The position numbers and the translations under genes were made by a program. A stretch of 64,000 nt of DNA from Exilibacterium tricleocarpae (lineage in GTDB: Bacteria; Pseudomonadota; Gammaproteobacteria; Pseudomonadales; Cellvibrionaceae), in NCBI RefSeq assembly GCF_007004655.1, contig NZ_ML660095.1, forward strand, positions 144,385-208,384, written 5' to 3'. Each line of letters starts with the position of its first letter. Position 1 is the first letter of the stretch. Under the pieces are notes generated by a model, which saw only the letters and a list, made by a program, of their open reading frames with translations, did no database searches and was not told where the DNA came from. Shown in pieces: positions 18,500 to 35,749 of the stretch.

Positions 18500-20329
18500 C
18501 TATGGGATTCGCCAGCAGGTTGTCAGCAGGTCGAGCAGCGAACTGGAGTTTTCACCATTGTTGGCCACGGTGGTATTGCCGCCGATCGTGCGATGGCTGT
18601 GGGTCAACAGTTCCTCAAACGCGCAGGCATCCTCCAGGTTGATATTGTCTGTCAGCGTAAAATCACCATCAATACGATTGATATTGTGCAGTCCTTCCAG
18701 GTTGTTCAACGATAAATTGTTGGTTATCTGTAAATCCCCCGGTACCTTTTTCAGCGCCGAGAAACCGATGATGGTCTCCATGTTCATGTTGGAGTCGATC
18801 AACAGATTGTTGCCCAGTGTGCGTAGTCGGTTAAAACCTTGCAGATGCCTCAGCTTGTGGTTGTAACCTACATACACGTTGCCTTGAACAGCTTGCAACC
18901 TGAAAGCGGCAACTGATGTGGCGGCCTGGTTTGTTTTGATGCCCAGACTGCCTCCGATATTGACCAGGCTCGGGAATACGATCGATCTCAGGTTGCCGTT
19001 CAGATACAGGCTGACATCCTTGTTGACAGAGGTCAGTGTCCCCAGGTTTAACTGGATGATATTTGAATTGCGCTGGATTTTAACATCACCGCTTACGCGG
19101 GCCAGGCCCTCCAGCCCTGACGTGGTCACCAGCCCGGTATTTCTGATAACGTGCAGCGATCCATTGGTAATGTCTGTGAGCTGATTCAGACCATTGAGAG
19201 AAAGCAGGGTGTGGTTGTTTGATACATCCAGCCCACCCACTTTCTTGAGACCCGACAAACCAAGCAGGCTGTCAATGGGATCGGTGGGGTGATCGACGAC
19301 AGTCAGTTTGCCGCTGACTTCACAATACTGGAGACCGTCCACTTGCTCTTGAGTCTCCAGCACCAGATCACCATCGTAGTAAGAGCTACACACATGGCAG
19401 TGATTTTTGATGGCCGCCAGTGAGTTAGTGGCGCGGGTGTTGTCGTAAATCCTGGTATAAAAATTGTCCGGTACATTGCTCCACAACCCGGTTGCGCCAC
19501 AGGCACTCGTCAAGTTTCGATTGCCCATAAGTTCAAAGTAATTGGTGCGAAAACGTATGGAGCTGTTGTCATACACGACATGCCGTAACCCATCGAGATT
19601 TTCTAACGAAGGGTTATTGTTGATCTTGAGTTCCATAATCGGCGCCGTGAAATTGCGTAACCCGTCCACATTGCGCAAATTCGTATTTTGGATGATATAA
19701 ATGTGACCCGGCTCACCGCCGGTCACGGCGCGGGCGTTGAGCAAGCCGTCGAGGTGAGTCAGCAAGGGACTGCGGGTGATCTCTATTATCCTGGGCAGGG
19801 TATGGACCGTGCTTAACGCATCGAGTGACTGCAAGCTGCGGTTGTATCCTATGTGCAGCCTGGCTCGACTGGTGGCGGCACTATCGCCGATTTGTCTCAG
19901 CTTGGGCATGCCCTCAAGCGAGGTGATATTGTGACTGTTAACTATCACTAATCCATAACCGATATACTCGAGGTTGGCCAACCCCGTTAAATCCGTCAGT
20001 CCGGTTTGCGCATCGAGCACCAGAGCCCCTGGAATACGCTTAATATTCTCAAACCCTTCGAGGCTGCGGATATGCTCATTGCGCTCCATAATGATGCTGC
20101 CGGTGAGGCTTTGCAGCATGGAAAGACGACGTATATTACCGATATTGCTCCAGCCGCCGGGACCACGGCTGCCGATTTTCAGATCGCCTTCTATATGAGT
20201 GCAGTCAAATGCACTCACATCCGCCTGGGTCAGAAGCAAGACGGTGCTGGTGCAGGTTTTTGCCGTGGCTTTTCCGCCGACGAGTAGTGAGCAAATAACT
20301 GTTATTAGTAGTGACACATATTTTTTCAT
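18500..20329 (-). CDS. secreted receptor-L-domain / leucine-rich-repeat-like protein
   Basis: 609 residues with an N-terminal signal peptide (MKKYVSLLITVICSLLVGGKATA). The rest is built from irregular repeats of about 22-26 residues such as SLEGFENIKRIPGALVLD, SLNGLNQLTDI and HLQGFNRLRTLGNNLLID. These resemble receptor L-domain or irregular leucine-rich solenoids. Two solenoid blocks are separated near residues 300-330 by a Cys pair region (NHCHVCSSYYDGDLVLETQEQVDGLQYCEVSG). A binding or adhesion role outside the cytoplasm is inferred from the fold alone. Codon use is less GC-rich than the neighbouring hyp genes, which may indicate separate origin. It is monocistronic and convergent with the hydrogenase operon. 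Confidence 0.75.
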   Translation of the reverse strand: MKKYVSLLITVICSLLVGGKATAKTCTSTVLLLTQADVSAFDCTHIEGDLKIGSRGPGGWSNIGNIRRLSMLQSLTGSIIMERNEHIRSLEGFENIKRIPGALVLDAQTGLTDLTGLANLEYIGYGLVIVNSHNITSLEGMPKLRQIGDSAATSRARLHIGYNRSLQSLDALSTVHTLPRIIEITRSPLLTHLDGLLNARAVTGGEPGHIYIIQNTNLRNVDGLRNFTAPIMELKINNNPSLENLDGLRHVVYDNSSIRFRTNYFELMGNRNLTSACGATGLWSNVPDNFYTRIYDNTRATNSLAAIKNHCHVCSSYYDGDLVLETQEQVDGLQYCEVSGKLTVVDHPTDPIDSLLGLSGLKKVGGLDVSNNHTLLSLNGLNQLTDITNGSLHVIRNTGLVTTSGLEGLARVSGDVKIQRNSNIIQLNLGTLTSVNKDVSLYLNGNLRSIVFPSLVNIGGSLGIKTNQAATSVAAFRLQAVQGNVYVGYNHKLRHLQGFNRLRTLGNNLLIDSNMNMETIIGFSALKKVPGDLQITNNLSLNNLEGLHNINRIDGDFTLTDNINLEDACAFEELLTHSHRTIGGNTTVANNGENSSSLLDLLTTCWRIP

Positions 20330-20407
20330 AAGGGCTCTCTTCGATATTTCATCATTAGCACTCTCACCAGAATGACACTTGGTTAAGCAACTATGTGCTA
20401 ATTGACC

Positions 20408-20519
20408 GGTCTGGCCCTGGCTGAAGCCTCCAGAAACACGTCGTGAACCCGTCCATGGGGACTTCTCGACAGCATCCCTGCTGCCGAGCGTTGCTGGAGG
20501 CTTCAGCCAGGGCCAGACC
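20408..20519. repeat. nested palindromic element C (26-bp perfect terminal inverted repeats)
   Basis: Arms 20408-20433 (GGTCTGGCCCTGGCTGAAGC...) and 20494-20519 are perfect inverted copies, and the pairing continues imperfectly inward. Read on the minus strand the core CGGCAGCAGGGATGCTGTCG, then GAAGTCCCCATGGACGGGTT, aligns almost base for base with element B, while the arms of B and C are unrelated. Confidence 0.85.
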
Positions 20520-21000
20520 TACCTTTGGTACACTTAATCGAGATCGATGTAACTGGGGCGGTAACCGATCAACTGGCACATTTTTTCTTAACTGTACCGT
20601 TCCACTCTGACCACTCTTTCCGCTTTCGGGTAAGTAGAGTTCGACGTCCTTTTTCCGAAATCATCAGAAGCCGCTACAGCGCTGGACAAGGATTTTCGAA
20701 CAAGTGGCAGGGTGGTTTTTTTGTATTGCTAAATCGACAGTCTCAAATTAAACCATATGGATTAAAAAAAATATGTCTGTGTCTTGAAAAGATGTAAAGC
20801 TTTGTAACTATGCTTCAGGGTTTGTGTGACTTATATCGCAACGGCTTTTAACCGCGTATAGATGTTACCGGCCCTGATTTTATTCACCGAGATCATCAAA
20901 GGCTTGCGGAATCTTTCCGGTCTTTTCCGCCGGTCCACTGCAGAGAAGGGTTCGGGGCGAGCTAGACGGACCATATCTCGGGAGAACAACGATACAGTGA

Positions 21001-21201
21001 ATCCAAGCAGAGGATGCAGTTAGAATCATCGAGCGGTTTGCGCCTGTGCGCGCAGGTAAAGTGAGACGTCTGGGTATTGATGGCGACCCCATGAGGAAGG
21101 CTGTGTTCGTCGCTCTCCAGCGGGCTGCGATGAAGTTATCGATAACTGATTGCCTGCAGCCGAAACTTAATGCCCTTTTTGGCATAAGTCGTTCATACTG
21201 A
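21001..21201 (+). pseudogene. possible remnant of an unrecognised gene
   Basis: An open frame of 66 codons after a TGA, without an upstream start or ribosome-binding site, encodes a protein-like stretch that includes ERFAPVRAGKVRRLGIDGDP and MRKAVFVALQRAA. I do not recognise the family. It could be the 3' end of a decayed gene or a chance frame. Confidence 0.2.
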
Positions 21202-21478
21202 TGACCAGTATATCGGTTGGAGAGTGGATATGTTGCAAACCGGCTGGTAGGTGTAGTTTTTGCGCCCGGGTCTGTTTTTATCCCATCCCGAAGGCTTGCA
21301 AGTATGCTGTTCCGTTCGCCGGGGGTGCCGAGCGGCTTCGGTACACCCCGGGGTTACCTGTCTTTTCCTGTTTACCATCACTTATCGAGTAGCTGGGTTT
21401 TGTCGCCCTGATGCCGGATGAACATTTTATCTTAATAAAAACAGAGGCTTAGAGGGGTTTTCAAAGCCTTTTTTAAAT

Positions 21479-21513
21479 CACATGTAATATTTCTTGACGG
21501 CTCACATGTAATA
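21479..21513 (+). promoter_or_regulatory. direct-repeat operator and promoter region of the DUF2170-PspA operon
   Basis: CACATGTAATA occurs twice in direct orientation (21479-21489 and 21503-21513), 24 bp apart. A TTGACG -35-like hexamer (21494-21499) lies between the copies. The second copy ends 16 bp before the ATG at 21530. I see no -24/-12 element, unlike the sigma-54-driven psp operon of E. coli. Confidence 0.5.
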
Positions 21514-21529
21514 AATTAAGGTGTGCGTC

Positions 21530-22156
21530 ATGAAAGCGAAGTCATCAGCGCACTACCAGCGAGAGTTCCGGCGCCGCCTGCGTGAGCAGGGGCTGGTCAA
21601 GAAGGAGGTCTGGATCCGCCCGGAGCATGCCAAGCACCTGGCACTGGTGGAAAAGCAGTTGCGTGAAGCCAACGGATCCCAGTGGATAAAAGGAGTCATG
21701 AGTATGACCAATAAAACCAATCTATGGACCACCACCAGTCTACACACCGCTTTGCAGGAAATGGATTTGTTTACCAATGGCGCGGCGTCGCTGGAATTGA
21801 TCGACGGTATCGAGCCCTCTCTGCATATTGTGATGCATGAATTTGGGGACCTGCCGGTGTTTTTAACCGTCTCGGGTGATCAGATTATTGTCGAATCTAT
21901 CTTGTGGTCGGTCGACGATGTGGCGGATGTCGTCAAGTTTAATGACGCCGTGCTGCGCACCCATAAGTACTTCCCCTTGTCCACAATCAGCCTGGACGCC
22001 ACCTCGAGCGGTTCTGACTATTACCAAATGTTCGGAGCCTTGAGTTCCACTTCCATTCTTTCCAACGTTATTTTTGAAATTGAGACGCTGGCTACCAATG
22101 TGATTCACGCTACCGAAGCCTACAGTGAATTCCTGACCATCCCGGTAGAGGCGTAG
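21530..22156 (+). CDS. yjfI: YjfI-family (DUF2170) protein, first gene of the PspA/flotillin operon
   Basis: 208 residues in two parts. The N-terminal 50 or so residues (HYQREFRRRLREQGLVKKEV, then WIRPEHAKHLALVEKQLR) are basic and resemble a ribbon-helix-helix DNA-binding segment. The rest is the acidic alpha/beta DUF2170 domain (VMHEFGDLPVFLTVSGDQI). DUF2170 genes regularly precede PspA homologues, as in E. coli yjfI-yjfJ, but their function is unknown. The RHH-like start and the twin direct repeats just upstream suggest autoregulation (inference). An ATG at 21530 is preferred over an in-frame GTG at 21521. The next gene follows after 11 bp. Confidence 0.8.
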   Translation: MKAKSSAHYQREFRRRLREQGLVKKEVWIRPEHAKHLALVEKQLREANGSQWIKGVMSMTNKTNLWTTTSLHTALQEMDLFTNGAASLELIDGIEPSLHIVMHEFGDLPVFLTVSGDQIIVESILWSVDDVADVVKFNDAVLRTHKYFPLSTISLDATSSGSDYYQMFGALSSTSILSNVIFEIETLATNVIHATEAYSEFLTIPVEA

Positions 22157-22167
22157 AGGAGACTGCT

Positions 22168-22857
22168 ATGAATATCTGGGCGAAAATGATGACGGCTTTG
22201 CGCGGCGGTGTGAACGAGGCGGGCGAGGCTATCGTCGACAGCCAGGCGCTGCGTATTCTCGACCAGGAGGTGCGGGACGCCTCTGAAGAGCTGAAGCAAA
22301 GTAAGGACAGCCTGGCCGCCATTATTGCCAGGCAGAAGCTATCTGAAGAAAAGGTGGTCAAGCTTAACAAAGAAATCGAAACGCACGAGGGCTATGCGGT
22401 AAAAGCGCTGGAGAAAGGCGATGAGTCACTCGCCCGCGAAGTTGCCGGCAAGATAGCTGACTTTGAAAACCAGTCTGCGGCCGAGGCTGAGGCGGGCGCC
22501 GGTTATGCTCGCAGCGCCGACCAGTTGCGCGCGGCGATCAAGCAGGCGGAAGCCAATATCAAGCGCTTGAAGCAGCAGGTGGATACGGTAAAAGCGACGG
22601 AAAACGTGCAGCGGGCTCAAGAGGCGGTGGCCGAGCGCCACAGCGGTTCGAACTCGAAGCTGCGCACCGCGATGGACTCTCTTGAACGGATTAAGGAAAA
22701 GCAGTCGCTCAAAGCCGCCAAAATGAATGCCGCCAGTGAGTTGGCCGCGGAGACGTCCGATGCCACGCTCCAGCAGAAGCTCGAGGAGGCCGGTATTGCG
22801 CCTTCGGGTAAGAGTGCCGACGATATTCTCGAGCGGCTAAAGAAAAAAGGCGCCTGA
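22168..22857 (+). CDS. yjfJ: PspA/IM30-family protein (YjfJ-like)
   Basis: ESCRT-III-like membrane-binding protein of 229 residues, almost entirely helical coiled coil. It starts MNIWAKMMTALRGGVNEAGEAIVDSQALRILDQEV, the PspA helix 1-2 region, and runs through heptad-rich segments (EELKQSKDSLAAIIARQKL and so on) to a short C-terminal SADDILERLKKKG. Family members polymerise on the inner membrane and protect it under stress. Its linkage with YqiJ, flotillin and a AAA+ ATPase is a known alternative to the pspABC context. RBS GGAGA lies before the ATG. Confidence 0.88.
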   Translation: MNIWAKMMTALRGGVNEAGEAIVDSQALRILDQEVRDASEELKQSKDSLAAIIARQKLSEEKVVKLNKEIETHEGYAVKALEKGDESLAREVAGKIADFENQSAAEAEAGAGYARSADQLRAAIKQAEANIKRLKQQVDTVKATENVQRAQEAVAERHSGSNSKLRTAMDSLERIKEKQSLKAAKMNAASELAAETSDATLQQKLEEAGIAPSGKSADDILERLKKKGA

Positions 22858-22915
22858 GACCGCCGAGCTCAATTGCAGGGAAGCCGTCTCCAATCCGGAT
22901 AAAAAGGGGTAAAGC

Positions 22916-23593
22916 ATGTTTGCAGTATTGCTTAGCAAAGAGATGGACCCGTTCTACCAGAATGTATCCTCTTTCCCGACGGTATTCTTTACCTTCTTTC
23001 TGATCTTAACCCTGCTGTTCTGGCTGGTGGCAGTGTTGGGTCTGGTGGATATCGATGCCTTCGATATACCTGGTACGGACCTCGAAATCGGCGACGGTAA
23101 TACGTCGACGCCCGATGCCGTGGCGGGGGTTATTTTAAAGCTTGGTTTAAACGGTGTGCCGCTGTCTGTGGTTATCTCACTGGTGTCGCTTATCGGTTGG
23201 TTTATTTCCTATAACACGGTGCATTTCTTTTCCTATTTGATTCCCTCTGCGGGCCTGGCGCGTTTTCTGGTGGGGCTGCCGGTGTTGTTGGGTGCGCTCT
23301 ACTTGAGCGTTCTGGCGACCGGTTTCCTGATCCGGCCGCTGCGCCCGCTGTTTAAGAAAATGCAACGGCATACTGAAAAAATGGTGCTGGGGCAGACAGC
23401 GGTAGTACGTACCTCCAGGGTTGATCCGGGTTTTGGCGAAGCCATCTTTGATGACGGCGGTGCAGGACTGATTCTCAAGGTAAGGGCCTCAGAGGGCCAG
23501 CAGTTTGGCAAAGGCGACAGGGTTGTCCTTATCGAATACCTCAAAGACGCCAATGCCTATCGTGTGGTTTCAGAAGAAGAGTTCAACGGCTAA
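22916..23593 (+). CDS. yqiJ: YqiJ-family membrane protein (NfeD-like OB fold)
   Basis: 225 residues. Three hydrophobic segments (about 22-45, 82-102 and 115-140) are followed by a cytoplasmic C-terminal OB-fold region (MVLGQTAVVRTSRVDPGFGEAI to RVVLIEYLKDANAYRVV). YqiJ/NfeD proteins partner with flotillin-type SPFH proteins, and here the YqiK flotillin gene follows directly. The pair is thought to organise membrane microdomains. Start at ATG 22916, with GGGGTAAAG upstream. Confidence 0.85.
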   Translation: MFAVLLSKEMDPFYQNVSSFPTVFFTFFLILTLLFWLVAVLGLVDIDAFDIPGTDLEIGDGNTSTPDAVAGVILKLGLNGVPLSVVISLVSLIGWFISYNTVHFFSYLIPSAGLARFLVGLPVLLGALYLSVLATGFLIRPLRPLFKKMQRHTEKMVLGQTAVVRTSRVDPGFGEAIFDDGGAGLILKVRASEGQQFGKGDRVVLIEYLKDANAYRVVSEEEFNG

Positions 23594-23636
23594 CGGCCCG
23601 CATATTGATTAGTACTAATAAAACGGAGTAATGATT

Positions 23637-25520
23637 ATGGCTGATATATCAGGATTTATGGGGATACTGGTCCCGGCAGTTGCGGTTTTTGTCGTCTTGA
23701 TGGGATTGCTGGCCGTTGTGAAGGCCTGGTATGTAAAGGTTGAGCAGGGTACCGCGCTTATTGTCAACGGCCTGGGGACTGTGCCCAGGGTACACTTCAC
23801 CGGCGCTCTGGTATACCCGATTATTTACAAAAAGGAATTGATGCGTATCTCGCTGATAACCCTGGAAGTGGACCGGCGCGGCAGCGACGGCTTGATTTGC
23901 CGGGATAATATGCGTGCCGATATTACCGTTGCCTTCTACCTGCGGGTTAACGAGACGGAGGAGGATGTCTTGAAAGTTGCCAAATCCATTGGTGCCAACC
24001 GCGCCTCGGATAAGGTTGCAGTAGACGAATTATTTTCTGCCAAGTTCTCCGAAGCGTTGAAGACAGTGGGTAAACAGATTGAGTTTGTACAACTCTTTGA
24101 AAACCGCCAGGACTTTCGGGAAAAGATCATAGAAGTTATCGGCGATGATTTAAACGGTTATGTATTGGAAGATGTGGCGATTGATTATCTGGAACAGACG
24201 CCGAAGAAGTCGTTGGACCCCAGCAATATTCTCGACGCTGAAGGTATCAAAAAAATTACCGAACTGACCGCTGAGCAAAATGTGCGCACCAATATCCTGG
24301 AGCGCGACGAAGAGTTGGCTATCAAGAAGAAAAATGTGGAAACCGTCGAGGCGATGCTGGAGCTGGAGCGCCAACAGGCGGATGCCGAGGCCAAACAGGA
24401 GCGGGAGATAGCCACCATCAGGGCACGGGAAGAGGCCGAGACGAAGAAGGTACAGGAAGAAGAGCGGCTCAAAATGGAAGCGGCCACGATTCAGGTGGAC
24501 CAGGATCTGGCGGTGCAAACCGAAAACCAGAAACGGGAAATCGAAGTGGCGGAGCAAAATCGCCAGCGCGCCGTGGTGATCGAGCAGGAGAAAGTTGTCC
24601 GGGCCAAAGACCTGGAGATCGTCTCCCGGGAACGTGAAGTGGAGTTGCAGCGTATCGAGGCAGAGAAAGCTGTAGAAGTCGAGAAAAAGGAAATAGCCAA
24701 TGTAATCCGCGAACGGGTTGCCGTCGATAAAACCGTTGCTATCGAAGAAGAACGCATCAACGAGGTGCGCGAAGTCTCGGAAGCCGACCGGCGCAAACAG
24801 GTTCAGGTACTGGCGGCGGAGGCCCAGGCCGAGGAAGAGAAGGTGAAACAGGTAAAAGCCGCCGAGGCCGAGGAACTGGCCGCGCAGCACAAGGCAACCG
24901 AAATCACCACTATCGCCCAGGCGGAGCTGGAGGCCTCGGCCAAAGAGGCCGATGCCAAGAAGAAACTGGCCGAGGGCGTTCAAGCCGAGCGCGCCGCACC
25001 GGGCTTGGCAGAGGCCAAGGTGCAGGAGGCCAAGGCCGACGCGCTGGAGAAAGAGGGGATGGCCGAGGCGGCGGTTATCGGCGCCAAGGGCGAATCCGAG
25101 GCCAGGTCGAAGAAAGAAATAGGTATGGCCGGTGCCGAAGTGACCCGCGAGCAGTTTAAAGCCGAGGCCGACGGTCTGGTCGAGAAGTTCGATGCCATGG
25201 GGGCCATGAGTGATAAGGCCCGTGATCACGAAGAGTTTCGTATGAGCCTGGAGACGGCGCTGAAAGAGGCCTTGGCGTCGATAGAGGCCGGCAAGGATAT
25301 CGCCAAGGAAAACGCCGAGGTGTTGGCGACTGCGCTGCAAAAAGCCCATATCGATATCGTCGGCGGTGAGGGTCATTTCTTCGACACCTTTGCCAAGTCG
25401 CTGTCCCTGGGCAAAGCGGTTGACGGTCTCGCCGCCAAGAGCGGCACCGTAGCGGCTTTTCTGGAAAAGTTTATCGACGAGAAGGAGGGGGCCGGCAACA
25501 GCGAGAAGAAAGCAGGTTAG
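23637..25520 (+). CDS. yqiK: YqiK-type flotillin (SPFH/Band 7 scaffold)
   Basis: 627 residues. An N-terminal membrane anchor (about residues 8-30), then the SPFH/PHB domain (VEQGTALIVNGLGTVPRVHFTGALVYPII to about residue 200), a very long Glu/Ala/Lys-rich coiled coil (about 220-500) and the flotillin C-terminal domain. It should form inner-membrane oligomeric cages or microdomains and act with YqiJ. It is somewhat longer than E. coli YqiK. The ATG at 23637 is preferred to that at 23631 because it sits 8 nt below GGAG. Confidence 0.92.
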   Translation: MADISGFMGILVPAVAVFVVLMGLLAVVKAWYVKVEQGTALIVNGLGTVPRVHFTGALVYPIIYKKELMRISLITLEVDRRGSDGLICRDNMRADITVAFYLRVNETEEDVLKVAKSIGANRASDKVAVDELFSAKFSEALKTVGKQIEFVQLFENRQDFREKIIEVIGDDLNGYVLEDVAIDYLEQTPKKSLDPSNILDAEGIKKITELTAEQNVRTNILERDEELAIKKKNVETVEAMLELERQQADAEAKQEREIATIRAREEAETKKVQEEERLKMEAATIQVDQDLAVQTENQKREIEVAEQNRQRAVVIEQEKVVRAKDLEIVSREREVELQRIEAEKAVEVEKKEIANVIRERVAVDKTVAIEEERINEVREVSEADRRKQVQVLAAEAQAEEEKVKQVKAAEAEELAAQHKATEITTIAQAELEASAKEADAKKKLAEGVQAERAAPGLAEAKVQEAKADALEKEGMAEAAVIGAKGESEARSKKEIGMAGAEVTREQFKAEADGLVEKFDAMGAMSDKARDHEEFRMSLETALKEALASIEAGKDIAKENAEVLATALQKAHIDIVGGEGHFFDTFAKSLSLGKAVDGLAAKSGTVAAFLEKFIDEKEGAGNSEKKAG

Positions 25521-25584
25521 TCCGGGCAATGGTTTTGTAGCCGCACACCGGTTTTCCAGATGGCTGCGTTGAAAGGATGAAACT

Positions 25585-28500
25585 ATGGTACAGCAGAGCC
25601 ACGCCGACAGTATTGTCGATACTGCCGTAGCTGAGGGGGGCGCCTATGAAGTCATTCAAAAGCGCCTGATAGAACAGGGTAAGCGCCTGGGTGAAAAGAC
25701 CCGCGAGCTGAACCAGGCGCGGCTGGCCGAGTTCGGCGGCACTGAAATGAAAGTCGCAGCCCGCGTTCGGGTGCGCACGGAGAACAATTGTATCGCCCGC
25801 GATATCGTGCAGGTGGGTGAATTTTTGTTGTTTGGCTACAACGTCTTTATCGGTCTGAAAAAGGAAACCCGGCTCGAGGATGTATTTGCCCTCTTTGCAC
25901 TCAAGGGAAAGGAGGAGCAGGTGGCGTTGGAGTCGATTGCTATCGGAGACAGTTTTCTGGCGGAACCCGGCTTTAAGAATGACTTCGAGGAGCTCTACCG
26001 TTATTACAAGCATACACGCCTGGTTCAGCTTACTGTCAAGCAGGGCAAACTGCTGGCCGGCTTCCAGATCGGTGAGCGGCTGGAGGACTTGCGGGTGTTT
26101 CGCTGGTCGGTCTCGGCTGATGGCAAAACCCTAAAGTATATCGATAACCGCGGCGAGCGCGATATTCAGTTGCCGCCGTCGTTCGACTTCGAGTGGTCGG
26201 AGGTTTCCAGGGAAGATTCGGTGCACGGCCGTCACCCGCACTTCAATATACTCGATACCTTGTTTGTCGAGACCACTCACGGCGATCTGACCATCAAGGT
26301 GGAAAACAATACCGAGGACGGGCTGGGTATTTATCGGGAGCCCGTGGAGGATAAGACTCAATCGCTGGATGATGCCAGTATATTCTACGCTTCTGTAGGC
26401 GGGTTGATTCTGCTGAAGGTTCTTCCCTACCGGGAACAGCAATGGCGGTACTTTATCTTTAATAAAGTCACCCGGGACGTCTTGCGGATCGACGCCATCG
26501 GCGAGTCTTGCGTGCAGTTGCCGGAGGACCACGGCGTCATTTTCCCCGGTGGTTTTTACCTGCAGACCGGCGAATACAAAGCGTTTAATGACCCACCGGA
26601 AGGGCTGAAGTTCAAGCGTATGCTGCGCTCCCCTAACGGCGAGGACGTGCTCTATGTATTCTACGAACCACAGCGGGGTGTGGTGGGTCTGTTCGCGTAC
26701 AATCTGATAGAGAAGGCGTTACAAAACCCCATCTATGGACATGGTTATGCGCTCGCCGAGGACGGCACCGTGGTTATCTTCTCAGCCGAGGGGGAACCCA
26801 CACGCGTGCACCCGATGCAGATTTGGATGACGCCTTTTGCCAGTCGCGAGTATGCCAGTAAGGTGCCGGCAAGCCAGACTTTCTACGGTAGGGTGGGCAA
26901 CGCGGAACTGGTGCGGGGCGTATCGGACCTCTACAGCATTTGCCGCATTATCGATAACCAGTCCGTATCGGCGCGCCTGTACGAAGAGCTGGGCAGAACA
27001 GCCGATAAGATGTTTGATGCTCACTATTGGATCGAGGACCCGCAGGCCGATGGTATCGGGGAGGTTTTGCGGGAAATCACTGCCACGGCCGAGTTGGTCA
27101 TCGACGAATTCGAAAAGGTCGAAAGCATCAAACAGCAATCGGCCAAGACCATGGCGGAAGCCGAGCAGGAGCAAGAGGAAATCCTGCAGACCCTGCGCAC
27201 CGGGAGCTGGGAGACAGCGGAGGATTATGTCGCCGCGCTCGAGCGCATTCGCCGTCAACGCGGCCATTTGACCACGATTCGCGACTACCGCTATATCGAT
27301 GTAGAGCGAATCGCGGAACTCGATCAGCAATTGCTGGCGTCGCAGGACGACCTGGGTACCAGAACTGTAGAGTTCCTGTCCGCCGAGGAGGCGCTGGCGC
27401 CTTATCTGGCCAAGATTGACGCCTTGAACAAAGAAGTGGAGCAGGCAGATACCAATGCGGCGTTAACGCCGTTGATAGACACTATCGAGGCCACTGCGAC
27501 CGGTCTCGACCTGCTCTCGGAGTTGATGGCGACGCTACAGGTGCAGGACGCCACCCAGCGCACCCGTATTATCGATGCTATTTCCGCGGTCTACTCAAAA
27601 CTGAATCAGAGTAAGGCCGGAGCCAGACACAAGCAGAAAAACCTGGGTTCCGAAGAGGCGGTTGCCCAGTTTGCCGCGCAGTTCAAACTGTTTTCCCAGA
27701 GTGTGACCAATGCACTGGGTCTTGCCACCACGCCCGAACGCTGTGACGAACAGCTTTCACGTCTGTTGGTACAGCTTGAAGAGCTGGAGGGTCAGTTCAG
27801 TGACTACGACCGGTTTCTCGGCGATATTGTCGCCAAACGTGATGAAATTTACGAATCCTTTGAGACCCACAAACAACAGTTGCTCGACCAACAGCAGCGC
27901 AAGGCGCAGTCGCTGGCCGACGCCGCCGCGCGAATGCTGGCAAGTATCGAGCGCCGCTCGCTCAAATTTACCGAGACTGACGCGCTCAATACATACTTTG
28001 CCGCCGATGCGCTGGTGATAAAAATCCGGGAGCTGGTGGAACAGCTTCGCGGCCTCGACAGCGCTGTGCAGGCCGACGAGATCGAAGCGCGCTTCAAGTC
28101 CATTAAAGAGCAGGCGTTGCGCTCGTTGCGGGATAAATCGGATATCTACGAGGACGGCGGCAACGTTATCAAGTTGGGCCCGCGTCACAAATTCAGCGTT
28201 AACACCCAGGATCTGGATCTGACGATTATCCCCCGTGAGGGCGACCTCTATATCCACTTGACCGGGACCGGCTATTTCGAAAAAATCGAGCATCCCGACC
28301 TCGCCGATCTGCGGGAGTATTGGGATGTATCGCTGGAATCGGAGAGTGCTGAGGTATATCGCAGCGAGTACCTGGCGGCTCAGGTTTTACAGGCCGCCGA
28401 GCGGGGCGGCGACTTTACCATGGCCGACTTGACCGCAGCTATGCGGGACACTGCGGCACTGGCGAAACTGGTGCGCGACTTTGCCGCGCCGCGCTACCGG

Positions 28501-30873
28501 GAAGGTTACGAGAAAGGCGTGCACGATCACGACGCTGAATTGATACTCAGGGAGTTGCTGCCGGCGCTGGAGCGCGCAGACTTGCTGCGTTACGACCCCG
28601 ACAGCCGCGGTTTGGCGCAGGTGTTCTGGTGCAACGTCGAGTTGCTGGCCCAGCATACCGAGGATCCCAGTTTGCGCTATGACACCTGGGTGGAGCGGGC
28701 ACAGTCGGCTTCCCTGATGTACTCGGTGTTTGCCAGCGCCAATGCCATCGATCTGCTGGTTGCCGAGGTAACCCGTGGGCTGCAACAGTTTCTGGCGTTT
28801 TATCCCATCGATTTCGATACTGCCGTAGTGGATCGCGCGGCCGCTTATCTGGTGGCGGAGCTGGGGCGCGAGCGGGTGGAGTTTATTTGCAGCAAGTACG
28901 CCAGCGAGCTGGTGGCGGCGCTCAAGCGCAGTGTCGAGGACGTAACCTGGCGTAAGTACCAGGCGGCACTGGATAAAGTGCGCGGCCAGCCCGCCGTGCG
29001 CTGGCAGCTCTCCAAGGCCTGGCTCGAGGCGCTGGTCGCAAGCGGTGATCTCGATCATCTGCGCCGCTATATTCCGGAGGCGGTGGCGCTGATCAACAGC
29101 GACAAGCGCCTGGACCGGCGTTTTACCGAAACCGACCTGGAGTTGACGGCGACCGGCCTGTTGGGTGAGCACCCTACCCTTGTCGAGCGGACGCTGCATT
29201 TTGCCGTGGATGAATTCCTGCAGCGCCTTCAGCGCCATCAGCGCTTTTTTGTCGCCGGTTATCGCCGTTATCACCAACTGCGCCAGGACGTTGCCCGGCA
29301 GGAACGCGAGGCGTTGCGGCTCGAGGAGTTTAAACCCAAGCCGCTGAGTTCTTTTGTGCGCAATCGGCTGATCAACGAGGCGTACCTGCCCATTATCGGC
29401 GACAACCTCGCCAAGCAGATGGGTACCGTGGGCGAGAACAAGCGCACGGATTTGATGGGGTTGCTGATGATGATCTCGCCGCCGGGCTATGGTAAAACGA
29501 CATTGATGGAGTATGTCGCCAGCCGCTTGGGGCTGATTTTTATGAAAATCAACTGCCCGTCGCTGGGTCACGATGTATTGTCGCTGGACCCGCAGCAGGC
29601 ACCCAACGCCACCGCCCGGCAGGAGCTTGTCAAGCTCAACCTGGCGTTGGAAATGGGCAATAATGTGATGTTGTATCTGGACGATATACAACACACTCAC
29701 CCGGAATTTCTGCAAAAGTTTATCTCTCTCTGTGACGGCACCCGGCGGGTGGAGGGCGTCTGGAAAGGCAAAACCAAAACCTACGATATGCGCGGGCGTA
29801 AATTTTGCGTGGTTATGGCGGGCAACCCCTATACCGAGTCGGGCGAAGTGTTTAAGATTCCCGATATGCTTGCCAACCGGGCGGATATCTACAATTTAGG
29901 TGATATTCTCGGGGGAATGGATGAGCAGTTTTCCCTGAGTTATATCGAAAACAGCCTGACTTCCAACCCGGTGCTGGCGCCGCTGGCAACCCGCGAGATG
30001 GGTGATGTCTACAAATTGATTCGCCGGGCCCAGGGGGAAAGCGTAGCCACTACCGACCTCAGCCATGCTTACAGCGGTGCGGAGATCAATGAAATCGAGG
30101 AGGTGTTGCGCAAGCTGTTTGTGATTCAGGACATTGTGCTGAAGATCAACCAGCAGTATATCGCTTCAGCGGCTCAGGACGACAAATACCGCCGCGAGCC
30201 GGCATTTAAGTTGCAGGGCAGTTACCGCAATATGAACAAGATGGCGGAAAAGGTCTCCGCGGTGATGAATGAAGAAGAATTACTGCAGATGATCAGCGAT
30301 CACTATATCGGCGAGTCGCAACTGCTGACCTCCGGTTCGGAGGAGAACCTGCTCAAGCTGGCGCAATTGCGCGGCAATATGACCGGGGCGGAAGCCGAGC
30401 GATGGGACGAGATCAAAAGACAGTTTTTACGCAACAAGGCCATGGGGGGAGACGATGCTGAAGTGGGTGGTAAAGTTGTCGTGCAACTGACCGATCTGGT
30501 CGAGGGAGTGAACCGTTTACATGCCGTAGCCGAACAGTTGAGCCGCAATCAGCCTCAGGTTCAAGAGGCAACACCGAACACGGCGTTGCTCAGTATCAAT
30601 AAGTCGCTGCAAAAGTTGGGGAAGTTGCTGGCGGCTAACCAACCCCATGTGGAAGTCGTTAACCAACCGGTACCGGGCATGGATAAAATACTGCAGGTAT
30701 TGGCCGAAACCATAGAACACAGCATCTTCCCGCTGGTGCGCAGCATGGACAAGAAACTGGAGATAGATCTGCGCACGCACGACAAGATGCAGGATATATC
30801 CGAACAGTTGCGTAGTCTGGAAAAGTCTGTCGCCGAGGAGAAACACAGGAAATCCAGTAAGCCGAATCCATGA
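25585..30873 (+). CDS. giant coiled-coil AAA+ ATPase (DUF3686-type, annotated 'DNA repair ATPase' in relatives)
   Basis: 1762 residues, the largest gene here. The N-terminal 450 residues are beta-rich with repeated strand pairs. A coiled-coil region follows (about 480-900), then a mixed helical region. The AAA+ domain has Walker A PPGYGKTT (about 1299-1306), Walker B MLYLDDIQ (about 1361-1368) and a sensor-like VVMAGNPYTESGEVFKIPDM segment. A further coiled-coil tail ends at RKSSKPNP. No membrane segment. The 'DNA repair' label of relatives has no support in the sequence; co-transcription with PspA and flotillin points instead to remodelling of membrane-associated polymers, much as Vps4 does for ESCRT-III. 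That is inference. RBS AAAGGATG; it overlaps the rhomboid gene by 4 bases. Confidence 0.8.
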   Translation: MVQQSHADSIVDTAVAEGGAYEVIQKRLIEQGKRLGEKTRELNQARLAEFGGTEMKVAARVRVRTENNCIARDIVQVGEFLLFGYNVFIGLKKETRLEDVFALFALKGKEEQVALESIAIGDSFLAEPGFKNDFEELYRYYKHTRLVQLTVKQGKLLAGFQIGERLEDLRVFRWSVSADGKTLKYIDNRGERDIQLPPSFDFEWSEVSREDSVHGRHPHFNILDTLFVETTHGDLTIKVENNTEDGLGIYREPVEDKTQSLDDASIFYASVGGLILLKVLPYREQQWRYFIFNKVTRDVLRIDAIGESCVQLPEDHGVIFPGGFYLQTGEYKAFNDPPEGLKFKRMLRSPNGEDVLYVFYEPQRGVVGLFAYNLIEKALQNPIYGHGYALAEDGTVVIFSAEGEPTRVHPMQIWMTPFASREYASKVPASQTFYGRVGNAELVRGVSDLYSICRIIDNQSVSARLYEELGRTADKMFDAHYWIEDPQADGIGEVLREITATAELVIDEFEKVESIKQQSAKTMAEAEQEQEEILQTLRTGSWETAEDYVAALERIRRQRGHLTTIRDYRYIDVERIAELDQQLLASQDDLGTRTVEFLSAEEALAPYLAKIDALNKEVEQADTNAALTPLIDTIEATATGLDLLSELMATLQVQDATQRTRIIDAISAVYSKLNQSKAGARHKQKNLGSEEAVAQFAAQFKLFSQSVTNALGLATTPERCDEQLSRLLVQLEELEGQFSDYDRFLGDIVAKRDEIYESFETHKQQLLDQQQRKAQSLADAAARMLASIERRSLKFTETDALNTYFAADALVIKIRELVEQLRGLDSAVQADEIEARFKSIKEQALRSLRDKSDIYEDGGNVIKLGPRHKFSVNTQDLDLTIIPREGDLYIHLTGTGYFEKIEHPDLADLREYWDVSLESESAEVYRSEYLAAQVLQAAERGGDFTMADLTAAMRDTAALAKLVRDFAAPRYREGYEKGVHDHDAELILRELLPALERADLLRYDPDSRGLAQVFWCNVELLAQHTEDPSLRYDTWVERAQSASLMYSVFASANAIDLLVAEVTRGLQQFLAFYPIDFDTAVVDRAAAYLVAELGRERVEFICSKYASELVAALKRSVEDVTWRKYQAALDKVRGQPAVRWQLSKAWLEALVASGDLDHLRRYIPEAVALINSDKRLDRRFTETDLELTATGLLGEHPTLVERTLHFAVDEFLQRLQRHQRFFVAGYRRYHQLRQDVARQEREALRLEEFKPKPLSSFVRNRLINEAYLPIIGDNLAKQMGTVGENKRTDLMGLLMMISPPGYGKTTLMEYVASRLGLIFMKINCPSLGHDVLSLDPQQAPNATARQELVKLNLALEMGNNVMLYLDDIQHTHPEFLQKFISLCDGTRRVEGVWKGKTKTYDMRGRKFCVVMAGNPYTESGEVFKIPDMLANRADIYNLGDILGGMDEQFSLSYIENSLTSNPVLAPLATREMGDVYKLIRRAQGESVATTDLSHAYSGAEINEIEEVLRKLFVIQDIVLKINQQYIASAAQDDKYRREPAFKLQGSYRNMNKMAEKVSAVMNEEELLQMISDHYIGESQLLTSGSEENLLKLAQLRGNMTGAEAERWDEIKRQFLRNKAMGGDDAEVGGKVVVQLTDLVEGVNRLHAVAEQLSRNQPQVQEATPNTALLSINKSLQKLGKLLAANQPHVEVVNQPVPGMDKILQVLAETIEHSIFPLVRSMDKKLEIDLRTHDKMQDISEQLRSLEKSVAEEKHRKSSKPNP

Positions 30874-31433
30874 ACGACCTACCCCTTAAATTTCGTGTGC
30901 TGACCTGTATTCTATTGCTGATGGCGGGTGTGCATATTCTGAATATGACAAATGGCTTTCAGTTTGTCGGTTACGGTATTCGACCGAGGGATATCAGCAG
31001 CCTGCCAAATATACTGTCGGCCCCGTTTCTACATGGCAGCGTCGGGCACCTGCTGAATAACCTTATAGGATTGTTCGTTTTCAGCAGTCTTTGTTTTGTG
31101 CGCTCGATCAAGTCGTATCTGGGTTGCAGTCTGTTGATTATCGTTGTCGGCGGGTTACTGGTTTGGCTGTTTGGTCGCCCCGCCACTCATATTGGTGCCA
31201 GTGGCTGGGTATTCGGGCTTTGGAGTTTGAGTATCGCCCTGGCGTGGTTCGAACGCCATCTGGTCAATATTATCATTGCGGTTTTTGTTATATTCTTTTA
31301 TAGCGGCATGATCTTTGGGGTCTTGCCCGGTGCGGCTCATGTTTCCTTCGAGTCGCATTTGTTCGGCGCTGTGGCCGGCGTTCTTTGCGCGACACTGGTA
31401 GCCAAGCGGCGTAGAGTCAAGTCACTATCCTAA
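30870..31433 (+). CDS. rhomboid-family intramembrane serine protease
   Basis: 187 residues, six hydrophobic segments. The rhomboid signature is complete: HGSVGHLLNN (HxxxN helix), GASG with catalytic Ser in ATHIGASGWVFGLW, and the catalytic His in FESHLFGAVAGVL. It is a compact six-helix form without extra domains. The ATGA overlap with the AAA+ gene shows it is part of this operon, so substrates may be operon partners or stress-released membrane proteins. It lacks the HLNWxHL-type motif I associate with rhombosortases and is therefore not assigned to that group. Confidence 0.9.
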   Translation: MNDLPLKFRVLTCILLLMAGVHILNMTNGFQFVGYGIRPRDISSLPNILSAPFLHGSVGHLLNNLIGLFVFSSLCFVRSIKSYLGCSLLIIVVGGLLVWLFGRPATHIGASGWVFGLWSLSIALAWFERHLVNIIIAVFVIFFYSGMIFGVLPGAAHVSFESHLFGAVAGVLCATLVAKRRRVKSLS

Positions 31434-31448
31434 ACAGCGGAGGTTGTT

Positions 31449-31970
31449 ATGAATTGCCCACAGTGTAAAGGTTACCGCCTGGCGCCGAGGGAGCTGGAGC
31501 CGGGTCTGATTGCCGCCGGTTGCTCCAAGTGCGAGGGTGTGTTGATATCACTGCTGAATTACCGTTATTGGGCGGACTATAAGCGCTTTAGCGGGCCGGA
31601 TGGGGATGAGGAGATTATTGCCGAAGACAACGAGAAAGCCCAGTTGTGCCCCAAATGCCATCGCATTATGGCCAAGTACCGTATTGGCATAGAGGCATCG
31701 AATAAAATTGACTTGTGTGCCAATTGTGATGAAGCCTGGCTCGACAGTGGGGAGTGGTCACTGTTAAAACGGCTGGATCTCCAGGACAAGTTGCCGAAAA
31801 TCTTTACCGACGCCTGGCAGGCAAATATTCGCAAACTCCGGCAGACACAACAGCAGAAAGCGCGTTATCAAAATATCTTGGGAGATGATTTCGAGCGGGT
31901 GGAGGAATTCAAGAGCTGGCTGGAAGCCCATGTGGAAGCGGACAAAATTAAGCAGTATCTGCTTTATTGA
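31449..31970 (+). CDS. zinc-ribbon (zf-TFIIB-like) protein
   Basis: 173 residues with two zinc ribbons: MNCPQCKGYRL to GCSKCEGVLIS, and LCPKCHRIMAKYRIG to LCANCDEAWLDSGEW. The C-terminal half is a charged helix (LRQTQQQKARYQNILGDDF). Zf-TFIIB proteins of this type often carry such paired ribbons with a WLDxGE signature. A scaffold or adaptor role in the operon is possible, but no function is known. RBS CGGAGG, 15 bp after the rhomboid stop. It is last in the operon, convergent with aas. Confidence 0.8.
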   Translation: MNCPQCKGYRLAPRELEPGLIAAGCSKCEGVLISLLNYRYWADYKRFSGPDGDEEIIAEDNEKAQLCPKCHRIMAKYRIGIEASNKIDLCANCDEAWLDSGEWSLLKRLDLQDKLPKIFTDAWQANIRKLRQTQQQKARYQNILGDDFERVEEFKSWLEAHVEADKIKQYLLY

Positions 31971-32076: not shown

Positions 32077-35000
32077 CTAAAACTGCTGCACCAACTCGGC
32101 AACACCTTTGTAGTCCGTTTTGCCCGTTCCCAACCGGGGAATCTCCTCGATTTTATGAATACTGGCGGGCAGCAGGAGATTGTCGATACCCCCGGCAATC
32201 AGGCGGCTGCGAATCTCTGCCGGGTCGGTGTCGCCTTCCATCAACAAGACAATTCTTTCCCCCTTTTTCTCATCCGGCATACTGACCGCAACAAAATAGA
32301 CCTCGTCGCTGTCGAGTATACTTTTCACTTTCTCCTCCACCGCCCCGAGGCTTACCATCTCACCGCCGATTTTGGCAAAGCGGGAGTAGCGGTCGATAAT
32401 GGTCAGAAACCCCTCTTTGCTGATATGCCCTTTATCACCGGTTTTATACCAGCGGCGGCCGTCCAGCTCGACAATCGCCTGCGCCGTTTTTTCCTCATCG
32501 TCCAGATAGCCCATCATAACCTGGGTGCCGGAAATCATAATCAGCCCATTCTCGCCCAGGGGCAGGTTCTCGAGTGTGTCGGGGTCCACCACTCGAAAGG
32601 ATGTACCCGGCAACGGCAGGCCGACGCTGCCGGGGCGATTGCCGTATTGCACGCGCCAGTAGCCGGTATCCAACGCATCGGGCACATTGACGCTGGCCAC
32701 CGGTGTGGTTTCGGTAGTGCCGTAGCCCTCGTAAATGGTTTTGCTGAACTTGCGCTCGAAAGCCTCCCGCGTGCTTTGATTGAGCTTTTCGGCGCCCGCC
32801 ACCACCAGGCGCAGCGAATCGAGCATCAGCGGTTCCACCTTGGGGTTTTTGGCATAAAGACGTAGAAAGGTCGCCGTGCCGCACAATACGGTAGCGCGGT
32901 GGCGGGCGATCGCCTTGGCGACGCCCAACACATCGGTCGGGTCGGGGTGGCAGACGATCGGCAATCCCTCCAGCACCGGCATAATCGAGGTCACCGTCAG
33001 ACCGAAGCAGTGAAACGGCGGCAGGCTTCCCACCATGACATCGTCCTCGCGCATATTCAGCACATCGCTGATCTGCTTGCAGTTGGCGACGATATTGCGA
33101 TGGCTCAACACCACACCCTTGGGCGCGCCTTCACTGCCGCTGCTGAACAGAATCGCCGCCGGCTGATCCAGCTTGCGGCGTTTGCCGCAAATTCGATACA
33201 GCAGGCCCGCCGGCAATAACAGAGCCTTCAGGTGGGCCACGGCCAGTTGCGCTTTACTGAAGCTGGCCTTGATATCCTCCATATACAGCAGCTCGCAACC
33301 GGCAAACAGCTTCTCGATATCGATACCGCGTTTTCGCAATCTGCTGGCAAAGAGTCTGGACGTGTAAATATGGCGGATATTACCGGCGGCGATTGCTGCC
33401 GCCGTAGCGTCGGCGCTGGCGGTGTAGTTGAGATTGACGGCGGTCTGGCCATTGAACATAACCGCCATATTGGCAATGATATTGGCGCCGCTGGCCGGTA
33501 GTACAATGCCGATATTGGGCTCCGGGCTGGCCGCGCGAATGCGTTTGGCGAAGGCCACTGTCGCCGTCAGCATGCGCCGGTAGCTGAGTTTGTCGCCCTG
33601 GGAATCCACCACCGCAATCTCCTTGCCATAACGTTTTGCGGTCTTGATCCAACTCAGGGGCACCGTGGGCAGGGTATCGGTAAACTGCTCCCAGGCGCTG
33701 ATCGAAAGCTCGAATACTTTTTGTTTCAGTGTTTCCACCGGCGTGGCAATCGATAATGTCGGCCCGAAGGCGACGATAACATTGCGCCGGCCCGCCGACG
33801 GGGTCCGGGCCTTGCGCAGTTTATCATTGGAGCGGGAGAAAGCGCTGCCCCACAATCCGCGCAGATAGAAAGGTAAAATAACGCCGTCCACGCCTTCGAC
33901 CGCGCGCTCATAGCCACTGTGAAACTTGCCGAGCTGGCCGTTGCGGCTGATGGCACCTTCCGGAAACAGGCAGACCACTTCTCCCTGTTTGAGCAGATCG
34001 TTAATGGTCGACAGTGCGTCTTCACTGTGGCCTTTGGCAATGGGTACCACCCCGAAAACTTTCAGGAACGGTTTCAGAAACCAGCGGTTGTAGATTTCCC
34101 GCTGCATGACAAATCGCACCGGACGCGGGCAGGCGATCTGCACCAGGGCCCAGTCGATCCAGCTGATATGGTTGCCGAGCATCAGCACGGCGCCCTGGGC
34201 CGGCAGGTTCCTAAAGCCGACGACATCGATTTTGTAGCGGCGTTTAAACAAGGCGGTGACCAGAATACGGGCGAAGGAATGGGGCAGTTGCCTGACCGTG
34301 TGCCCGGTTCCCACCAGTGCGACTACGGCCAGCAATACCAGGATGGTTTCGCTGTTCAGGCCGAAAGTGGCAAAGGTAACGGTCAAACCCAGAAACGACA
34401 GCATGGCCACGTTCTGGGCCCAGTTGTTACCGGCCAGTACCGTGCCCAGTTCGTCTTCGCGGGCATTGAATTGGATCAGGGCGTTCAGCGGGATGATAAA
34501 CAGACCGCCCATCACGCCCAGGGTCAGAAATGTCAGGCCCATGGTCCAGGGGCTTTCCAGGGTCGGCATCAGCACCAGTGCGGCGGTGAGGCCGGCCGCC
34601 CCCAGCGGGATCAGGCCGGTTTCGATATAGTTGCGAGAGACCCGCCCGGCAATAATTGAGCCGAGCATAATGCCGATGCCCGTGCAGGCCAGAATCCCCT
34701 GGATCACCAGGGTGTTGTCCTCCTGCAGGGTGGCCTTGGCAAACGCCGGGAAGGCCGCCAGCACCACCTGTGAGATGGCCCAGAACACCGACAGCCCGAT
34801 AATGGACTGCCAGATCGTGTGTTTGCTGCGAATCGAGCGCAGGTTGCGCTTGAGGTACCGGCCTTTGAAGTACTCGGGTGCCGAGAAGGTTTTCCCGGTG
34901 TTGGTTTGGGTTTTCTGGGGCAGGCGATAGGCGAAGATGAGTTCGATAACCGCCAGGGTGACGAGAATCCAGCCGATAGGCGCGATATTGGTCATGATGG

Positions 35001-35526: not shown

Positions 35527-35749
35527 ATGACGCCTCTCCTTCCGGTTATTCTGCGGTTTGCTCAGTGCCTCGGTCCCGGGTAGGCCCGTGCTTGCCGAGG
35601 CACAGGCTAATCTGCCAGGAGGTTGCTCCAAATGCTACGTTTAATTCGTTTGTATTGTTCGGTACACTGCAAAGTATCACTATACGGACCCTTCTTTAGA
35701 ATCGCTAATATAGATAAGATCCGCTATGGCCAGAGAAACACTGTCTTTT

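Follow-up and report, generated by a model that had tools for sequence, protein, structure and literature searches.

The window analysed here is a stretch of 64,000 nucleotides from the gammaproteobacterium Exilibacterium tricleocarpae (contig NZ_ML660095.1, forward-strand positions 144,385 to 208,384), in which seven open reading frames (ORFs), all on the + strand and spanning 21521-31970 in the ORF listing, form one compact operon. Its first five genes belong to the Pseudomonas aeruginosa bac class, also described as CesT-PspA-flotillin-AAA+, which is already in print; genes for a rhomboid protease and a zinc-ribbon-type protein follow. Two copies of an operator box lie in front of the operon, and among related loci the type of operator changes with the regulator gene of the operon. 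The intergenic gaps are, in order, 11, 58, 37, 64, -4 and 15 bp, with a single ATGA overlap (30870-30873) at the AAA+/rhomboid junction. The original prediction, made from the sequence alone, had described seven genes packed in one direction with gaps no longer than 65 bp and one such overlap, and had named all seven products (DUF2170, PspA, YqiJ, YqiK flotillin, a 1762-residue AAA+ ATPase, rhomboid, zinc-ribbon). The packing (gaps of -4 to 64 bp) is as it stated, and profiles or matches to E. coli proteins bear out the identities:

21530-22156, + strand: DUF2170/BacA (NF050185, 323 bits; PF09938, 170 bits; model against 8q8o, TM 0.94 of target); by alignment and model, residues 1-48 form a basic helix-(strand?)-helix and residues ~63-205 a CesT/YbjN-like domain
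22168-22857, + strand: PspA, YjfJ-type (PF04012, 163 bits; E. coli YjfJ, E=5.4e-30)
22916-23593, + strand: YqiJ/NfeD-short-like protein with three hydrophobic stretches (family profile match)
23631-25520, + strand: YqiK-type flotillin (E. coli YqiK, E=2.6e-40)
25585-30873, + strand: DUF3686-AAA+ ATPase, 1762 amino acids (PF12458, 666 bits; PF25472; PF00004; weaker AAA matches), with the AAA+ module at about residues 1250-1430 (model and fold search)
30870-31433, + strand: rhomboid protease with predicted catalytic S111 and H163 (PF01694, 69 bits; residues; ATGA overlap with the AAA+ gene)
31449-31970, + strand: zinc-ribbon-type protein with four C..C pairs (CPQC, CSKC, CPKC, CANC; PF13453, 35 bits)

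The conserved start of the DUF2170 gene is, by alignment, ATG 21530 and not GTG 21521. The YqiJ and YqiK proteins have no Pfam match above cut-off. A profile built from the YqiJ proteins of the family matches E. coli YqiJ (E=1.7e-13; Z=1, among three test sequences), which the window YqiJ protein alone does not match at E<=0.001.

The NF050185 score of the first product exceeds the cut-off of 300 bits and thus places DUF2170/BacA, the mark of a bac operon, as first gene; the order DUF2170, PspA, YqiJ/NfeD, flotillin, large AAA+ is also that of bac. The P. aeruginosa operon encodes BacA (DUF2170), BacB (PspA), BacC, BacD and two further proteins, and RT-PCR links all six genes, bacA-F being co-transcribed (PMC10948618). 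As in the window, DUF2170, PspA, a short NfeD/YqiJ protein and a flotillin come first in strains PA14/PAO1 and more co-transcribed genes follow; the operon has been linked to biofilm, swarming and osmotic shock (PMC2587700, PMC10948618, PMC13086221). Loss of its PspA member alters biofilm, swarming, rhamnolipids and mouse lung infection, and this protein rises upon osmotic shock (PMC2587700). Ravi et al. 2024 (PMC11237479) describe a class that unites CesT/Tir(DUF2170)-PspA with band-7/flotillin, a beta-propeller AAA+ and YqiJ, five proteins identical in kind to the window's first five, and that has a PLD-type hydrolase as an extra member in some Proteobacteria. The original prediction had stated that parts of this association were noted in surveys of PspA contexts, which holds for that class; it had missed the experimental work on bac (PMC10948618, PMC2587700).

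The P. aeruginosa bac locus itself was not among the 149 genomes of one Pseudomonas genus that were sampled. The loci closest to its BacA (L145-L147; 78, 75 and 71% identity) have PLD after the AAA+ gene and no rhomboid gene; bacF is therefore most likely a PLD gene, and BacE is, from the same relatives, probably the AAA+ ATPase. The P. aeruginosa operon would thus differ from that of the window, which has no PLD gene and carries the rhomboid and zinc-ribbon genes in its place.

Operator types across related loci

A DUF3686 search found the AAA+ gene in 10 of 369 genomes of the class, 46 of 390 of the order, 8 of 398 of the phylum and both genomes of the genus, samples that overlap and that each include the own genome; the one other genome of the genus has the same operon. 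Besides the window's own, 57 AAA+ loci were laid out, cluster membership following a same-strand chaining rule. DUF2170 and PspA are present in 22 of these clusters, YqiJ in 53 and PLD in 5; 35 lack a same-strand PspA, eight of them having PspA in an adjoining divergent unit. In the Pseudomonas sample, 76 of the 149 genomes have a DUF2170 match; 15 of the 20 best-scoring ones besides G556 have the AAA+ gene, and 12 of these 15 bac loci contain PLD. A further survey started from the rhomboid: a single scan of a species-level collection gave 91 relatives, the best 80 of which were covered, with neighbours within 1.2 kb. Overlapped genes were left out of the layout (the rhomboid of L158, the long DUF2170 of L010 and L156). 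The recurrence of the gene set in other genomes answers the question of a chance association.

The regulatory layer in front of the operon is the part that the original prediction missed and the most testable one. It comprises a tandem repeat, the second copy of which ends 16 nt short of the conserved ATG, and a sigma70-like promoter:

21478-21489: operator copy 1, TCACATGTAATA, an exact 12-nt direct repeat in a 24-bp register
21478-21487: 10-mer TCACATGTAA within operator copy 1
21494-21499, + strand: -35-like TTGACG, 5/6 (sequence)
21502-21513: operator copy 2, TCACATGTAATA, within the promoter spacer (repeat and promoter alignment)
21517-21522, + strand: -10-like TAAGGT, 3/6, 17 nt downstream of the -35 and 7 nt upstream of the ATG

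The double box, searched as TYACATGTRA-N8-20-TYACATGTRA on both strands of the 7.18 Mb genome, has a single location, and its backwards control has 0 matches. TYACATGTRA is found upstream of all 40 loci called as bac-type, with a long DUF2170 and the AAA+ gene (36 distinct promoter sequences, 12 family codes; 13 loci in one family and 7 more named Pseudomonadaceae), and 36 of the 40 have two or more boxes. It is found at none of the 15 loci whose regulator is encoded by a gene of its own (5 family codes) and in front of none of 29 AAA+ operons that lack DUF2170 and PspA. A second type accompanies the long DUF2170 of yjf-type operons, nearly all from Pseudomonas: TCACGCGTGA at 52 of 58 loci and TYACATGTRA at 8 of 58, one copy of the window (L001) having been left out of this class. 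The third type belongs to the loci in which a separate ribbon-helix-helix (RHH)-like gene is present, a label given from pattern only; the two such proteins scanned have no RHH match in Pfam. All 15 of these have GACATNNNATGTC and 13 have GACATAWTATGTC, which occurs once among the 29 AAA+ operons (L058). Strict boxes are found at none of 17 other loci, and TCACGCGTGA at one (L147) of three loci that have a short DUF2170 and no regulator gene.

The boxes are concentrated where operators are expected. Of the 96 copies of TYACATGTRA, 92 fall within the upstream windows (84,886 of 3,025,946 bases), and for the three strict boxes taken in turn the counts there are 92/96, 101/103 and 29/29; three of the four TYACATGTRA copies elsewhere sit 28-50 bp before the long DUF2170 genes of L010 and L156, which are outside the 40. 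The form of DUF2170 follows the same division: a separate RHH-like gene lies within 3 kb of 15 of 19 short DUF2170 genes and of none of 99 long ones (loci counted with duplicates and one E. coli locus). The operator type thus changes with the regulator gene of the operon. In six of the loci (L021, L022, L024, L027, L035, L037), a DUF2170-PspA-RHH-like unit diverges from YqiJ-YqiK-AAA+, and boxes of the GACATAWTATGTC type stand close to either end of the region between the two units, both of which one regulator could therefore control.

In the alignment of the 36 bac-type promoters, 31 have two boxes, about 23 bp apart, and the spacing of the last pair is 21-26 bp in 33 of 34. Anchoring on the last box was possible for 35 promoters (L011, whose second box is degenerate, was left out): TTGA stands 9-10 nt before it in 25 of 35 (about 1% in shuffled sequence) and TANNNT 4-8 nt after it in all 35. 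This hexamer lies 4-7 nt from the ATG, a distance that suggests a leaderless message. The window's sigma70-like promoter differs from the sigma54 promoter that has been proposed for the P. aeruginosa operon by its authors (PMC10948618). A sigma54 promoter for bac-type operons was rejected: neither of the two patterns tried matches any of the 36 related promoters, the window's included, and the nearest + strand match in the window, with 2 mismatches, is ~950 bp upstream.

The rhomboid protease and the AAA+ ATPase

The original prediction called the rhomboid catalytically complete, and its sequence does contain H55, H60, N64, G109xS111G and H163. The serine of GxSG and the histidine of transmembrane helix 6, the predicted active site, are invariant across all 107 aligned copies, some of which repeat the same contig. 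A rhomboid gene follows the AAA+ gene in 12 of the 57 loci (in L038 with one small ORF between) and is present in 11 of the 15 Pseudomonas bac loci. Among the best 80 of 91 rhomboid relatives, 69 adjoin PspA or the AAA+ gene: 54 lie near a same-strand PspA with the AAA+ gene absent, 13 near the AAA+ gene and two near an opposite-strand PspA. All but one of the 54 are titled Pseudomonas and form DUF2170-PspA-rhomboid operons, often continued by a K+-channel-like gene (the Kch label is from sequence) and yjfK-like genes. Three Providencia loci run YqiJ-YqiK-AAA+ and then rhomboid, with no PspA within the stretch shown. From these linkages the rhomboid emerges as an optional member that recurs in two types of PspA operon and in flotillin-AAA+ operons without PspA. 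Confinement of the association to the window, which would have told against the original prediction, is thus not what the survey shows. Its other proposed companion fares less well: the zinc-ribbon gene recurs in 8 of the 57 loci and in none of the 15 Pseudomonas loci, and is thus weaker and patchier than the rhomboid. The chaining rule omits one zinc-ribbon gene, that of L007, which lies behind a Peptidase M90 gene with a SEC-C motif (6837-7679), itself placed after the rhomboid gene.

At 23 of 37 AAA+-linked loci the junction with the rhomboid is a -4 overlap, and translational coupling of a predicted active protease to the AAA+ is proposed. In Shigella, rhomboids target orphan membrane proteins (PMC7232013); by analogy, quality control of membrane proteins is the best reading of its task. 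The window rhomboid is not a Rhombosortase: the similarity to TIGR03902 is remote (33.2 bits against a cut-off of 84), and another gene of the genome scores 128.9. An apparent rhomboid-PLD fusion in L158 was likewise discarded, the PLD ORF just running on, in another frame, across a distinct rhomboid ORF.

The rhomboid might instead be a captured neighbour that is kept by shared expression and stands outside the system. This would account for its optional presence and for the tree, in which non-linked relatives are interspersed. The GlpG and own-genome rows of the tree have very long branches, and it was treated as unrooted, its outgroup row (L167) being unusable; an approximately unbiased (AU) test leaves a single grouping of the rhomboid family unrejected (p 0.32), a result without probative weight. 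Against capture stands the linkage to two DUF2170-PspA operon types and to the PspA-less AAA+ operons of Providencia, where a junction of -4 or -1 is common; simple capture seems improbable.

The AAA+ ATPase carries a Walker A (GYGKTT) and a Walker B motif (LYLDDI). Modelled from residue 860 to 1762 (pLDDT 82.8, pTM 0.62), it best matches CbbQ (5c3c, Z 12.9 over 134 residues), followed by NorQ (Z 12.5), AfCbbQ2 (12.3) and the AAA modules of midasin and dynein (12.3), which are tied with CbbQ/NorQ (within 1 Z); ClpA/ClpB match at Z ~11. Foldseek matches are NorQ, ClpB-type, MCM and RuvB chains. The model has a hairpin before the sensor-1 strand (model residues 529-542), a feature of non-classic AAA+ clades that is not known from Vps4. 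The core fold is close to MoxR/CbbQ/NorQ in the model and may be called MoxR-like, without being filed as a MoxR member. A VWA-protein partner gene is typical for MoxR-type AAA+ proteins; the seven operon proteins, searched with Pfam, contain no VWA domain. In four loci the genes after the AAA+ gene look like rnr and rlmB (L019 from its sequence; L016, L025 and L026 by size only), genes that also precede yjfIJ in E. coli.

These matches bear on the view that the operon encodes an ESCRT-like remodelling machine, with the AAA+ ATPase as disassembly motor of PspA filaments and the rhomboid as release protease. PspA is in the ESCRT-III superfamily (PMC8281802), ATP-dependent remodelling has been proposed by Ravi et al. 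for certain PspA-AAA+ pairs (PMC11237479), and the 4 bp overlap of AAA+ and rhomboid genes is frequent. Yet the best structural matches are MoxR/NorQ/CbbQ and dynein-like modules, most AAA+ clusters have no same-strand PspA and most rhomboids of the survey stand beside PspA with no AAA+. Vps4 is not among the 50 matches listed in either fold comparison, which excludes nothing. A machine of this kind is unlikely on present evidence. The membrane-remodelling operon of the original prediction stands as one compact operon, probably for membrane stress, and a Vps4-like nature of the AAA+ disassembly motor is not supported so far.

DUF2170 as a candidate regulator of its own operon

The long DUF2170 proteins have about 48 conserved N-terminal residues, with a mean identity to the window of 0.63, as compared to 0.21 for the linker and 0.57 for the DUF2170 domain (32 sequences, <90% mutual identity). 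The crystallised P. aeruginosa BacA chain (8q8o) is 146 residues long, aligns from residue 66 of the 211-residue ORF and is without the window protein's N-terminal domain; PA3732 was given as 16 kDa in 2008 (PMC2587700), and from these two sizes the studied BacA product appears to be devoid of this domain. The words ribbon, DNA-binding and repressor are absent from the main text of the 2024 bac paper (PMC10948618). The modelled C-terminal domain matches 8q8o, YbjN, AmyR, ExsC and CesT. Kinship of the fused N-terminal domain with the separate RHH-like proteins was tried and dropped, no homology being detectable (hhalign probability 0.5%).

It is conceivable that a regulator from another locus, or an activator, binds the palindromes and that DUF2170 acts by protein-protein contact only. 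The fold of its C-terminal domain is that of type III secretion system chaperones and YbjN, and the bacA authors favour control via protein contacts together with a sigma54 site (PMC10948618). The operator type, though, tracks the regulator gene within the operon, the double box has a single genomic place, which suits a local regulator, and the sigma54 patterns failed on every promoter. This alternative is accordingly held to be unlikely.

The operon is probably a bac-type envelope-stress operon in which DUF2170 is its own, operon-specific autorepressor and reads PspA via its CesT-like domain. The N-terminal domain would bind the two TYACATGTRA palindromes in and around the sigma70-type promoter before its own ATG, and the CesT/YbjN-like C-terminal domain would bind PspA. 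A strong BacA-PspA interaction is mentioned as unpublished in PMC10948618, and an AlphaFold2 interaction probability of 0.981 for BacA-BacB has been published (PMC13092808). Membrane damage would draw PspA to the membrane, or PspA would otherwise release DUF2170, and with repression lifted the whole set would be made. PspA would then coat the membrane, with YqiJ-flotillin as a platform; the MoxR-like AAA+ may remodel or extract membrane-associated complexes, and the translationally coupled rhomboid may, in the window's variant, cut orphan or damaged membrane proteins. A task for the zinc-ribbon protein in the same response is conjectural.

The proposed logic of DUF2170-PspA mirrors that of PspA-PspF in E. 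coli, with different parts; E. coli PspA is plausibly both effector and sensor. PspA is common to E. coli pspF/pspABC and to the window's operon, which is devoid of the PspB/PspC partners of the E. coli-type system; these have matches only on contig C22, in a search that covered PspB and PspC. The yjfIJKLMC-type operons of E. coli and Pseudomonas share the DUF2170-PspA dyad with the window, and in Pseudomonas the same rhomboid family follows; unlike the window, they have no flotillin and no DUF3686 AAA+ in the loci laid out, and most Pseudomonas loci have the operator TCACGCGTGA instead of TYACATGTRA. The balance of evidence tips slightly towards a wider proposal, Psp control without PspF or sigma54: DUF2170 would be an operon-specific repressor that reads free PspA via a chaperone-like domain. 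This sensor would have been kept while the DNA-reading module and its palindrome were exchanged, giving three or more combinations (TYACATGTRA read by a fused domain, TCACGCGTGA by a diverged fused domain, GACATNNNATGTC by a separate protein of unrelated origin), and the rhomboid would have come under the circuit in several lineages.

Several points weigh against an autorepressor of this kind and its rhomboid branch. The helices of the DUF2170 model (6-19 and 31-47) are of low confidence and not a recognisable ribbon-helix-helix; no DNA-binding family matches the N-terminal domain in Pfam at E<=1, and the only NCBIfam-type hint is UrfF, at 19 bits against a cut-off of 100. The window's -10 is poor (3/6) and its promoter is unlisted by a generic promoter scan; a sigma54 promoter is proposed in print for bacA (PMC10948618), from a species that was not among the genomes compared. 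Many of the loci are related by descent, so statistics over loci are not independent, and all but one locus of the yjf-type set, assembled largely through similarity of the rhomboid, are Pseudomonadaceae. At 45 of the 57 AAA+ loci there is no rhomboid, and among its 80 closest relatives (best 80 of 91) 11 adjoin neither PspA nor AAA+. In PA14, mutants of paFlo3 (flotillin) show biofilm reduced by only ~20% (PMC13086221). Finally, a pspA-pspB-pspC cluster stands apart on contig C22 of the genome, which makes the operon a second PspA system.

Surroundings and significance

The 20330-21520 region upstream of the operon has no ORF longer than 101 amino acids (ORF listing, minimum 80). It contains an inverted repeat (20408-20519) with 30-nt arms, 97% complementary and 52 nt apart, which is a copy of a ~120 bp dispersed element, REPIN- or MITE-like; 40 scored of 188 candidates gave 40 near full-length copies, the window's included. 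Adjoining it on the - strand (18500-20329) is a gene for a 609-residue protein with Receptor L/leucine-rich-repeat-like domains. Downstream, a convergent 1184-residue ORF (32077-35631, - strand) has MFS, acyltransferase and AMP-binding domains and resembles a fused LplT-Aas lysophospholipid repair protein. A defence-system identity was rejected, PADLOC giving nothing beyond weak JetC matches from the coiled-coil PspA.

No description of the rhomboid branch, of the three pairings of operator and regulator or of DNA reading by DUF2170 came up in the literature searched. Among the matches listed there is no rhomboid-PspA-flotillin operon and, by title, no paper on the operator box sequences; the word rhomboid is absent from the main text of Ravi et al. 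2024 (PMC11237479), in whose text no operator or DNA-binding role for DUF2170 is found either, figures, tables and supplements aside.

In print, BacB-F accumulate 6.1- to 13.5-fold in a bacA mutant (PMC10948618); DUF2170 as an autorepressor offers an explanation for this rise of the operon upon bacA loss and suggests that the crystallised BacA chain is without the predicted DNA-reading part. The proposed circuit provides a cheap and concrete test of how a large PspA operon class is switched on. Operons of two different types link PspA to a rhomboid protease, and a bacterial ESCRT-III homologue would, if the wider proposal holds, be tied to intramembrane proteolysis in several lineages.

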